Shown here: piece after piece, positions 35,283-42,795 of the stretch
Layout: each line of letters begins with the position of its first letter
Numbering within the stretch: position 1 is the stretch's first letter
NCBI RefSeq assembly: GCF_963664965.1
Contig: NZ_OY761823.1
Coordinates: 2,622,001-2,686,000 of the forward strand
Length of the DNA stretch: 64,000 nt
From: an uncultured Pseudodesulfovibrio sp.
Lineage (GTDB): Bacteria; Desulfobacterota; Desulfovibrionia; Desulfovibrionales; Desulfovibrionaceae
Direction of reading: 5' to 3'
Made by a program: the position numbers and the translations under genes
The notes under the pieces: generated by a model
Seen by the model: the letters and a program-made list of their open reading frames with translations, nothing else
The model's database searches: none
What the model was told of the DNA's origin: nothing

Positions 35283-36665
35283 ATGTATTTCAAGCAGATA
35301 ACCACTCCCGGACTCGGCTGTTTTTCCTATGTGATCGGATGCCCCGCAGCGCGTGAAATGATCGTTGTCGATCCCAAACGCGACGTGCAGGATTATCTGG
35401 ATATCTCACGGCAGGAAGGCATGAAAATCACTCATGTCATTGATACGCATGTTCACGCCGATCATGTTACCGGAGCTCATGAACTCAAGTCGCATACCGG
35501 CTGTGACATAATGATGTATGAGACATCCCCGGTCACATTCAATTTCACTCCGCTGAAAGAAGGCCAGAAATTGACTGCCGGAAACGCGGGGCTTGAAGTG
35601 CTGCACACTCCCGGCCATACGCCGGATTCACTGTCACTGCTTGTTACGGATTTCAGCCGGGGGCAGGAACCATGGATGGTTCTGACGGGTGATGTCCTCT
35701 TCGTCGGGGACATCGGCAGACCCGATCTCGTGGGCAATGCGAAACTCGATGAACAAATCACTAACCTCTACAACTCCCTTTACGTCAAGCTTGCCAGCTA
35801 CCCGGATCATCTGGAAGTCTTTCCAGCCCACGGCGCAGGGTCCCTTTGTGGCCGCGGCATGAGTTCAAAACCCAACTCCACCCTCGGTTTCGAACGACGC
35901 CACAACCCCATGCTCGGTTTTGACAGCTTTGAAGCCTTTCACCTCGCCATGAGTCAGCAATTCCCGACACGGCCCAAGAGCTTCACTCATATCATTTCCA
36001 CCAATGCCTCGGGCGCACGACTTCTGGAACGGTGCCCCATGGATCTCGCCATGGAGCCGGACCGTTTTGAGGAACGAATGCTGGACTCGGCTGTCGTCAT
36101 CGATGTTCGCAACGCTGCGGCCTACGCAGGTTTTCACATTCCCGGCTCCATCAATATCGGCTTCGAACCGAGCCTCGCCAACTGGGTCGGGATGGTTGTC
36201 GATCCGAAGTCGGACCTGCTTCTGGTCGTTGATTCCCAAGCGGATTATGAACGGATGCGGACAGAACTGCACCGGATCGGTTACGACAATATCCACGGCT
36301 ATCTCATGGGTGGCATCGAGTCATGGGTTTACAGCGGACGCCCGGTAGACAAGCTTTCCATCGATTCTGCTCAGGAAGTTGAACAGTGCCTTGAAGACGG
36401 CAAGAAACTGAGCATTGTGGACATACGGACACCTGCGGAAATAGCGCAAGGGAAAATCCCCGGAGCGGCCACGGTTTCTCTGATCGACATTCTGGACGGG
36501 AAATTCGATCTCCCGGAGGAGGATCACCATATCATTTATTGCGCTTCAGGCTACCGCTCAAACATTGCGGCATCTTATCTGCAACGCCACGGCTACTGGA
36601 ATGTGCGAGCCCTCGCAGGCGGAGCCATCGCCTGGACACGTGCCGGATATCCGCTGGAGAAATAG
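35283..36665 (+). CDS. Persulfide-dioxygenase-like metallo-beta-lactamase with two rhodanese domains
   Basis: A 460-residue, three-domain protein. The N-terminal metallo-beta-lactamase domain (1 to about 205) has H56-x-H58-x-D60-H61 (THVHADHVTG), TPGHTPDS, GDVLFVGDIGRPDL and FPAHGAG, the pattern of ETHE1-type persulfide dioxygenases. Rhodanese 1 (about 265-355) has DS where the catalytic Cys belongs. Rhodanese 2 (about 365-458) has the active Cys at 420 (IIYCASGYRS). The likely role is oxidation or transfer of sulfane sulfur in the cytoplasm. AAGGAG lies 6 bases before the ATG. Confidence 0.88.
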   Translation: MYFKQITTPGLGCFSYVIGCPAAREMIVVDPKRDVQDYLDISRQEGMKITHVIDTHVHADHVTGAHELKSHTGCDIMMYETSPVTFNFTPLKEGQKLTAGNAGLEVLHTPGHTPDSLSLLVTDFSRGQEPWMVLTGDVLFVGDIGRPDLVGNAKLDEQITNLYNSLYVKLASYPDHLEVFPAHGAGSLCGRGMSSKPNSTLGFERRHNPMLGFDSFEAFHLAMSQQFPTRPKSFTHIISTNASGARLLERCPMDLAMEPDRFEERMLDSAVVIDVRNAAAYAGFHIPGSINIGFEPSLANWVGMVVDPKSDLLLVVDSQADYERMRTELHRIGYDNIHGYLMGGIESWVYSGRPVDKLSIDSAQEVEQCLEDGKKLSIVDIRTPAEIAQGKIPGAATVSLIDILDGKFDLPEEDHHIIYCASGYRSNIAASYLQRHGYWNVRALAGGAIAWTRAGYPLEK

Positions 36666-36697: not shown

Positions 36698-36729
36698 AAA
36701 AAATCCCTGCAACCGATGTTTCAGGGATT
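36698..36729 (-). terminator. Hairpin between convergent genes
   Basis: Stem AATCCCTG / CAGGGATT with a 12-base loop. The stop codon of the MFS-ApbE gene lies at the edge of one arm. On the minus strand it is followed by a short T-run; it may also serve the plus-strand sulfur gene. Confidence 0.6.
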
Positions 36730-38919
36730 CTTTGATGGGAAATTTTCCGTCACCGTAACTGACATATCAGATTTGAACCACATGGCTGCGACGTCAGGAT
36801 ACTTCTCCCGAACAAACCGCATTCCCTCGGTGCCGCCCATGATGAACAACGCTGTTGCCAAGCTGTCTGCGGACTCAGCACTGTCAGCCACAACAGTGAC
36901 CCCAGCGACCTTGTCAGCAGGCTCCATGTCAACGGGATTTATGATGTGATGCCGCAGGTCGGTTTCTCCATCCTTTTCCAAAAGAACGAACTGCTGATAA
37001 TCACCTGAACCGCAAACGCCTTTTTCACGAACGGCAATGGTCGCAAAAACAGCATCCTTACGGGGATGCCTGATACCAACCTTCCAATCACGATCTCCAA
37101 AACAGTAAAAATCCCCCCCGGCCTCGACAATGCCAGCCGCAATCCCTAGTCCGCGCAACATCTTGACTGAAGCGTCAATAATCGTCCCCTTGGCTACACC
37201 GCCAAGATCAAGCGCCATGCCGGTTTTCTCCAACCGCACTCTTCGTTGCGCTTCGTCAAACTGAACCTTGTGGTAATCAACCAGATCCTTTTTTGACCGG
37301 GCAACACTCTCATCAAGCGCATAATACAAGGGAGAAGTCGTCAAGGCACCGATGGTCGGATCGAATACACCACCAGTCTCATCACTGAACCGAATCGTCC
37401 GCCGAATCAGGGCATATGTCCTTTTTGACGGAGTACTCCAATTCCTTCCGGCAGAATGATTGATGCGCCCAACTGATCCTCGTGGATTCCTGAAATCCAG
37501 ATCCTTCTGCAATTCACGCATGAAAGCCATGACCTTGCGCGACGCTTCGTCCGCGGCCCTGCGGCTGTCGGCAACAAGAGTCAGGCTGACGATGGTTCCC
37601 ATGGCAGTGTCAGTATATTTGTACGCGCTTTCATAATCCGCAGCATTTTTCCGGTGAGCATGCACATGCAGACCGCCGAGCACGAACAGAAACAACGCGC
37701 TGAAAAGACCAATCGCCCATGTCACTTTTCTGCCCAGATACAACTTTTTCCCAAGCACCTGACTCCCAAAAGGAAGGCAGCACAATAATCCCCAAAATGC
37801 AGCCAACTGAAAAACAACATCCAGTTGATGTGCGTACTGAACCATCAAACCGCCAGCCAGCGGTCCCGCCATGAAACCAACTCCGGATACGGCATGTGCC
37901 ATCCCGAACCCCCGCCCCTGCCGGGGAGACAGACGAGAGGCAAGAGTCATGGAAGACGGTATCGAAACAGAACTGCCAAGCCCCATGACACCGCCCCAAA
38001 GAGCAAACTGCCAAAGCTCTCTGCTCGCTCCGACTCCATAAAGAGCGACAGCGCTCAGCATCAACCCGCAAAAAGTCAGCACGCTTTCCGACCGCCCATC
38101 AAGTATACGCCCTGCAACCGGAAGCCCGAAACAAACAGCCAGTCCGGGAATGGCAAACAGCATTCCGACGACAAGCCCGCTCCTTCCAAGGGTCAACGAA
38201 AGCAGAATGGGATAAAAAGCCGCAACCAGTCCTATGCCAAAGGTTCGTCCGGCAATGGCGGTATACAAAAGAAACAGGGAATAATCTCCATCATGACCGG
38301 ACCAATTCTCTTCAGAATCATCAGTCCGAGGACCAACCTCTGCTTCTTTTGGAAAAAATACAGCAACAACCAACAATGCCAACCCCATACAGCAGGCAGT
38401 ACCGACAAGCACAGGTTGCACTTCCCGCCCCAGATACAGCCAGCCTCCCGCAAGAGGTCCGACAAACATTGCAACATGGAATAAAAAGGTATGAGCAGAA
38501 AACCAACGGACCTTGGCGTTGCCTGAACTCCCCCCTATGACAGCCATGCCGACAGGCCTGACAAGCCCGGAGACAATCCCCATAACACACTGAATAGCAT
38601 ATAATATTGTTATGGAAGGCACCGCAAAATATACCAAGGGAACGACAGCGCCGAGACCTGTTGCGAACAGCAATGGGATGCGCGCACCAGAATGGTCTGT
38701 CCACTTCCCAGCCAACGGCCCGATGACTATCCGGGCAAAATAATACCCGGCAAATCCACTGCCAAGCCATGCGCCGCTGATCTTTTCATCCAGACTCATG
38801 AGAGGCAGAACAAATGAAAACAGCCCGACACCGAGCGCCACAAGAAAACCGCTCGCCATCACGGCAGTCATCCGATGCTGTCCCGCAGCACTCGCTTTAT
38901 TTGTAGTGTCCCTTTTCAT
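36721..38919 (-). CDS. MFS transporter fused to an ApbE flavin transferase
   Basis: A 732-residue fusion in one open frame. Residues 17-388 are a 12-helix MFS transporter with GKWTDHSGARIP after helix 2 and SRLSPRQGRGFGMAH near helix 11. An extra helix follows (about 399-417), then an ApbE domain (about 435-730): YTDTAMGTIVSL, FDPTIGAL, DLGGVAKGTIID (571-582), HIINPVDMEPAD and ADSLATALFIMGG. ApbE attaches FMN from FAD to Thr/Ser of target proteins in the periplasm. With 12 helices the chain ends in the cytoplasm; the 13th would place ApbE outside. The MFS part may export the flavin substrate, which is inference. Confidence 0.9.
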   Translation of the reverse strand: MKRDTTNKASAAGQHRMTAVMASGFLVALGVGLFSFVLPLMSLDEKISGAWLGSGFAGYYFARIVIGPLAGKWTDHSGARIPLLFATGLGAVVPLVYFAVPSITILYAIQCVMGIVSGLVRPVGMAVIGGSSGNAKVRWFSAHTFLFHVAMFVGPLAGGWLYLGREVQPVLVGTACCMGLALLVVAVFFPKEAEVGPRTDDSEENWSGHDGDYSLFLLYTAIAGRTFGIGLVAAFYPILLSLTLGRSGLVVGMLFAIPGLAVCFGLPVAGRILDGRSESVLTFCGLMLSAVALYGVGASRELWQFALWGGVMGLGSSVSIPSSMTLASRLSPRQGRGFGMAHAVSGVGFMAGPLAGGLMVQYAHQLDVVFQLAAFWGLLCCLPFGSQVLGKKLYLGRKVTWAIGLFSALFLFVLGGLHVHAHRKNAADYESAYKYTDTAMGTIVSLTLVADSRRAADEASRKVMAFMRELQKDLDFRNPRGSVGRINHSAGRNWSTPSKRTYALIRRTIRFSDETGGVFDPTIGALTTSPLYYALDESVARSKKDLVDYHKVQFDEAQRRVRLEKTGMALDLGGVAKGTIIDASVKMLRGLGIAAGIVEAGGDFYCFGDRDWKVGIRHPRKDAVFATIAVREKGVCGSGDYQQFVLLEKDGETDLRHHIINPVDMEPADKVAGVTVVADSAESADSLATALFIMGGTEGMRFVREKYPDVAAMWFKSDMSVTVTENFPSKNP

Positions 38920-42795
<3,876 letters not shown>

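Follow-up and report, generated by a model that had tools for sequence, protein, structure and literature searches.

We describe a gene that encodes a transporter of the major facilitator superfamily (MFS) and an ApbE-type flavin transferase in a single chain, and we suggest that the product is a supply-and-transfer module for extracytosolic flavinylation, in which the MFS half would export FAD and the ApbE half would transfer FMN to RnfG. We put the probability of this reading at about 0.68. The gene lies in a window of 64,000 nucleotides, the whole stretch of DNA that was analysed, from an uncultured Pseudodesulfovibrio sp. With regard to the two parts of the reading, in many of these bacteria the fusion very probably flavinylates Rnf; for the MFS half, FAD export is the function that best fits the gene associations, and a probable one.

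FAD is made in the cytoplasm and ApbE needs it outside the cytoplasm. The source of this extracytosolic FAD is called an open issue in the Vibrio ApbE paper (PMC5655446), and a chain with both a transporter and an ApbE, in genomes where no other ApbE is found, makes the question directly testable. If the reading is correct, MFS joins MATE and ECF as types of bacterial flavin exporter, and the same role is suggested for separate MFS genes beside nqr clusters.

In the mechanism that we propose, the 12-helix MFS half would move cytoplasmic FAD into the periplasm. The C-terminus of this half would lie on the cytoplasmic side, and a 13th helix, similar to the signal anchor found in ordinary ApbE proteins, would cross the membrane again and hold the ApbE half in the periplasm. 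There the ApbE half would bind FAD, split it and attach FMN to the GAT-motif threonine of RnfG, as the domain, the catalytic triad, the census of acceptors and the operon position suggest. In the source genome the likely target is the RnfG of an rnf cluster (cluster A) about 43 kb away that has no apbE of its own.

Layout and topology of the fusion protein

The preliminary description had an MFS transporter and a complete ApbE domain in one frame with an extra helix between them, and both the sequence and the domain searches confirm this arrangement, the helix now being placed as in Table 1. ApbE and MFS_1 are the only two Pfam families in the protein at E up to 0.001, and the PF07690 match and 12-helix fold of the first half place it in the major facilitator superfamily. 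In the case of the ApbE half, PF02424 is matched completely (E 3.2e-61, 207.6 bits against a curated cut-off of 25.6, positions 1-266 of 266). The residues that align with the Ser-His-Asp catalytic triad described for FmnB (PMC12052999) are unchanged in 32 of 32 aligned fusion rows, and by its sequence the ApbE half appears to be intact.

Table 1. The fusion gene, its domains, selected codons and adjacent DNA (positions in the window)
Feature	Position	Strand	Remarks
MFS-ApbE fusion gene	36721..38919	minus	732 codons and stop, one uninterrupted frame
MFS domain	37741..38898	minus	residues 8-393, twelve helices
13th transmembrane helix	37651..37731	minus	residues 397-423
ApbE (FAD:protein FMN transferase) domain	36778..37602	minus	residues 440-714
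Gln110 codon	38590..38592	minus	helix 4, in the place of the motif-B arginine
Arg121 codon	38557..38559	minus	helix 4
Arg225 codon	38245..38247	minus	helix 7
Ser638 codon	37006..37008	minus	aligns with FmnB Ser257, catalytic triad; FmnB numbering worked out from the alignment
His658 codon	36946..36948	minus	aligns with FmnB His273, general base
Asp685 codon	36865..36867	minus	aligns with FmnB Asp301
Divergent intergenic region	38920..39288		369 bp, fusion to next gene
Next gene	39289..42795	plus	pyruvate:ferredoxin oxidoreductase by reading of the sequence alone

The topology was judged from loop charges and a structure model. The mean number of Lys and Arg over 32 rows is 1.66-3.94 in the seven stretches expected to be cytoplasmic and 0.06-1.12 in the seven expected to be outside, with loop borders that were fixed before the structure model was available, and the stretch following helix 13 has a mean net charge of -1.22 in the same number of rows. 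Two of the loops expected to be outside have a small net positive charge, which we count against the reading. At helix 13 all 32 rows have a hydrophobic 17-mer (mean Kyte-Doolittle value 1.66 or more), which is uncharged in 31 of them, and the AlphaFold model has 13 helices with the twelve MFS helices intact. The periplasmic placing of ApbE put forward in the preliminary description is thus supported by prediction, namely by the loop charges and the helix count of the model.

Several close separate ApbEs (L130, L131, L135, L136 and L137) have an N-terminal hydrophobic segment with which helix 13 aligns, and the fusion can therefore be read as an MFS protein that ends in the cytoplasm and to which an ApbE has been joined together with its anchor. 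In the two nqr-linked MFS sequences that were inspected the chain ends after the stretch corresponding to helix 12. The usual ApbE, Ftp or FmnB protein (PF02424) has a lipoprotein, Tat or simple anchor signal, whereas the ApbE of the fusion would be held by the transporter and the 13th helix. The ApbE-fumarate reductase fusions of trypanosomatids (PMC12052999) are similar in that ApbE is joined to a partner of its pathway, but there the partner is the target enzyme, and in our case the partner would presumably supply FAD.

The immediate neighbours of the fusion in the window are not flavin genes by reading of the sequence, and those at 35283..36665 and 39289..42795 were rejected as functional partners, being shared in part of the genus only. 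A search of the 369-bp divergent region gave no promoter match.

Distribution of the fusion and its link to Rnf

The database check proposed in the preliminary description was for the same domain order elsewhere, and the order does recur. The fusion is present in 34 of the 36 genomes of the genus (the source genome included, one copy, in G026, being cut by a contig end), which are not independent samples of each other; in 33 of the 35 other genomes the identity is 41-58%. The two without it are G007, which is 82% complete, and G031. In a family sample of 247 genomes, with no more than four candidates scored in each, there are 54 copies in 53 genomes belonging to genera g1, g19, g28, g34 and g36, and the fusion was not found in 24 genomes from other families of the order. 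For a phylum sample of 395 genomes two candidates per genome were scored and ordered by score, and the full-length matches among those listed are from the source genome and from G607, a member of another family. Searching contigs with the single protein gave no relative, but searching with an alignment gave 44 loci, of which 13 match over the full length and the others only along ApbE; some of these 13 loci come from genomes that also carry G numbers here. Named records with the fusion include Pseudodesulfovibrio MAGs, Salidesulfovibrio brasiliensis, and uncultured Desulfovibrio and Desulfobulbus MAGs.

The case for Rnf as the target begins with the genomes that have no alternative transferase. 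The fusion is the only PF02424 match in 26 of the 36 genus genomes, 23 of these being at least 90% complete, and all 26 have at least one acceptor, the acceptors counted being FMN_bind (RnfG-type) proteins. Seven of the 26 (G002, G003, G004, G011, G015, G017 and G028) have one fusion and one FMN_bind protein each, and in all seven the FMN_bind gene is 1.3-1.9 kb from a class-A rnfB gene. RnfG is flavinylated in the Rnf complexes that have been studied (PMC12052999), and if this is so in these seven genomes, and no ApbE has been missed, the fusion must be responsible.

Co-occurrence points in the same direction. Class-A rnfB (58-100% identity to P0002) is present in 53 of 53 fusion genomes of the family sample, the copies of G008 and G080 being partial. 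Of the 194 genomes that lack the fusion 12 have it, with a partial copy in G133. At genus level this is 5/5 fusion genera versus 6/39 (hypergeometric P 4e-4), the corresponding value at genome level not being meaningful because of kinship. The two genes are less than 20 kb apart in 22 of the 53 genomes and 44-54 kb apart in seven, including the source genome. They are far apart on one contig in eight and on different contigs in 16, and we count these 24 of 53 against the reading.

Direct association is seen in L057 (G082) and L063 (G607), from different families, in which the fusion is the next gene on the same strand after a complete rnfC-D-G-E-A-B operon, with gaps of about 0.5 kb and 0.2 kb respectively. 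The rnf operon of Desulfovibrio alaskensis ends with an apbE-like gene (PMC4841214), and a separate apbE directly follows rnfB in four genomes without the fusion (G090, G095, G128 and G146), from which we take it that the fusion occupies the place of a separate apbE. Of the 12 genomes with class-A rnfB but no fusion, 11 have a separate ApbE, these four among them. The neighbourhood check proposed in the preliminary description thus gave recurrence beside Rnf in relatives and a link elsewhere in the source genome, but not at the immediate neighbours in the window. An FMN_bind gene is a neighbour by way of rnf at L057 and L063, and directly only at the second fusion of G020, which starts 14 bp after the gene for a 226-aa protein with two FMN_bind stretches. 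This protein (L111 4661-5341) has a signal-like start and an FMN_bind motif ending in AKAS rather than GAT. At L140 and L149 the rnf genes are 14-16 kb from the fusion, and between them lie, by reading, genes for fumarate reductase, fumarase, malic enzyme and a transporter; the whole cluster, which ends near the fusion, includes a cytochrome gene and rnf (L140 1451-19632, L149 2254-17135).

The source genome has two ApbE matches and two FMN_bind matches, each of the latter inside an rnf cluster. Cluster B (L116) terminates in its own apbE. Cluster A, which lies outside the window (L127 6923-13804, equivalent to G000:C1:2703922-2710803), consists of a gene read as cytochrome-like, rnfC, D, G, E and A, and an rnfB gene for a protein of 701 aa, with no apbE among them. 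NCBIfam and Pfam confirm RnfG, RnfD and RnfA of this cluster. Its RnfG retains the acceptor threonine (TAISGAT), as do nine of nine RnfG proteins inspected, but the first residue of the motif is Thr in place of the usual Asp, and a strict Asp-first pattern misses it. RnfD of cluster A (L127 8858-9838) has no GAT motif and was rejected as a flavinylation target, RnfG having the motif. The 701-aa RnfB (L127 11699-13804, outside the window) carries pyridine-nucleotide-disulphide-oxidoreductase and Fer4_20 domains, from which it seems to be joined to a part that presumably resembles GltD/NfnB.

In several genomes, including the source genome, a separate apbE serves another rnf cluster, which we count against the preferred reading, and flavinylation in itself can do without the fusion, since G031 has no fusion but has two separate ApbEs and two FMN_bind proteins. 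G607 has a second ApbE-like match (G607:C158:2242-3264) with three internal stops, perhaps a decayed copy.

The MFS half, its relatives and other flavin exporters

The preliminary description had linked the two halves by inference, and independent evidence for the link comes from separate relatives of the MFS half. Against the MFS profile of the fusion, fourteen separate MFS proteins, each about 400 aa long, reach 291-318 bits, and all 14 are in loci with ApbE. By tblastn each locus has complete nqrA, B, C, D, E and F followed by apbE in order; the MFS gene is before nqrA on the same strand in 13, and beyond apbE on the other strand in L098 (G022). NqrA and NqrB of L105, and NqrC, NqrF and ApbE of L108, matched their family profiles, the L108 ApbE below the model cut-off. 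As a control, 14 more distant MFS genes (96-171 bits) were examined and 0/14 have an ApbE frame within about 6 kb, although for L158 one flank is just 1.6 kb long. A gene for a protein of 152-153 aa follows apbE in 11 of the 14 nqr loci (e.g. L105 14839-15297); the one searched gave no Pfam match.

In a tree of 41 rows made by a quick method, the fusion and nqr MFS sequences form one group (SH-aLRT 100, branch length 1.85) apart from 13 comparison MFS proteins. The nqr MFS sequences are one group within it and the fusion rows are unresolved, such that one or more fusion events are both possible. The clade has its own marks. At position 110 all 42 fusion rows and all 14 nqr MFS proteins have Gln, but 11 of 11 comparison proteins have Arg; position 121 is Lys or Arg in all 56 of the clade, with Arg in 2/11 of the comparison set, and position 225 is Arg in all 56 and in 4/11. 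A possible role for these two basic positions is to bind the phosphate groups of FAD. All 56 keep the motif A aspartate, and many glycine and proline positions are also conserved.

The strongest alternative is that the MFS half pumps out or otherwise carries a compound that is not a flavin, the fusion giving ApbE a membrane anchor and co-regulation, and we consider it unlikely. There is weak similarity to pumps of the Tet and NorA type, drug:proton antiporters that we take to be the group named DHA1, and by sequence the closest named families and structures are those of drug transporters, with none of these families over its curated cut-off. TetR-like genes often precede drug pumps, and a gene read as TetR-like is directly before the fusion in four loci (L112 6209-6805, L113 6368-6940, L114 6856-7554 and L060 9369-9941). 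The DHA1 antiporters share the 12-helix MFS fold and motif A aspartate with the fusion (motifs as in PMC9143388), but they have in helix 4 the motif-B arginine thought to act in proton transfer (PMC9143388), whereas the fusion clade has Gln in 56 of 56 together with the conserved basic residues at 121 and 225. Also against a drug pump are the association of the separate clade members with nqr and apbE in 14 of 14 loci, and the fact that an ordinary anchor would suffice, as it does for separate ApbEs. No substrate was read from the VIA and Foldseek lists, because many different MFS proteins rank within a narrow band.

Known flavin exporters offer a comparison for the proposed export role. The MATE proteins Bfe and YeeO export flavins (PMC5655446), and export to the periplasm is the job we propose for the MFS half, although it has a different fold and is in one chain with ApbE. 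In Listeria the FAD exporter is EetB-FmnA, and eetB is often near apbE (PMC9973259); this transporter delivers FAD for ApbE, as we propose for the MFS half, but EetB-FmnA is of ECF type with separate subunits, in contrast to an MFS protein in the same chain. The fusion protein has no Pfam match to PF07456 (EetB), nor to MatE at E up to 0.001. EetB is found in 0/36 genus genomes, two control genomes giving matches, and an ECF-type FAD exporter was dropped as an explanation. MatE gives nine matches in five frames of the source genome, and as Bfe and YeeO are MATE proteins another FAD exporter is possible.

The MatE matches also bear on a second alternative, less likely than a drug pump, in which FAD leaves by a MATE protein and the MFS half retrieves the AMP that ApbE releases as a by-product, or imports external flavin. 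Inhibition of ApbE by AMP (PMC12052999) and the MATE membership of Bfe and YeeO (PMC5655446) fit such a role, but the neighbourhoods, by reading, show nothing toward nucleotide uptake, and the same linkage is explained more simply by export. An extension of the export reading, which we regard as doubtful, is that the whole clade forms a new exporter family that serves ApbE with FAD and nothing else, fused in the case of Rnf and separate in the case of Nqr, and perhaps exchanging FAD out for AMP in. The loss of the proton-coupling arginine and the gain of two basic residues would then go with the return of AMP, coupling transport and transfer within a single chain.

Very improbable is a third alternative, in which transport has been lost and the MFS half serves as a scaffold that brings ApbE to Rnf or Nqr while these are assembled. 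In its favour, each of the presumed targets is a complex in the membrane, and the arginine usual for proton coupling has been lost in the clade. The motif A aspartate in 56 of 56, the many glycines and prolines kept, and the twelve helices intact in the predicted model argue against it.

To date no MFS-ApbE protein is named in the titles and abstract openings that we found in the open-licence literature, or in the available parts of PMC8238504, PMC11334425, PMC12052999, PMC9973259, PMC8836040, PMC11509735, PMC10920352, PMC9143388, PMC5655446, PMC12504390, PMC3751524, PMC4403809 and PMC4841214. In main-text word counts 'major facilitator' scored 0 in PMC8238504, and 'MFS' scored 0 in PMC11334425, PMC12052999 and PMC9973259.

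The preliminary description had named a frameshift, a cytoplasmic ApbE domain and absence of the fusion from close relatives as findings that would tell against it, and none of the three holds, the second on prediction. That the frame is an artefact of assembly or frameshift uniting two genes is hardly credible and is ruled out by the identical frame in genus relatives (33 of 35) and in four further genera of the family.
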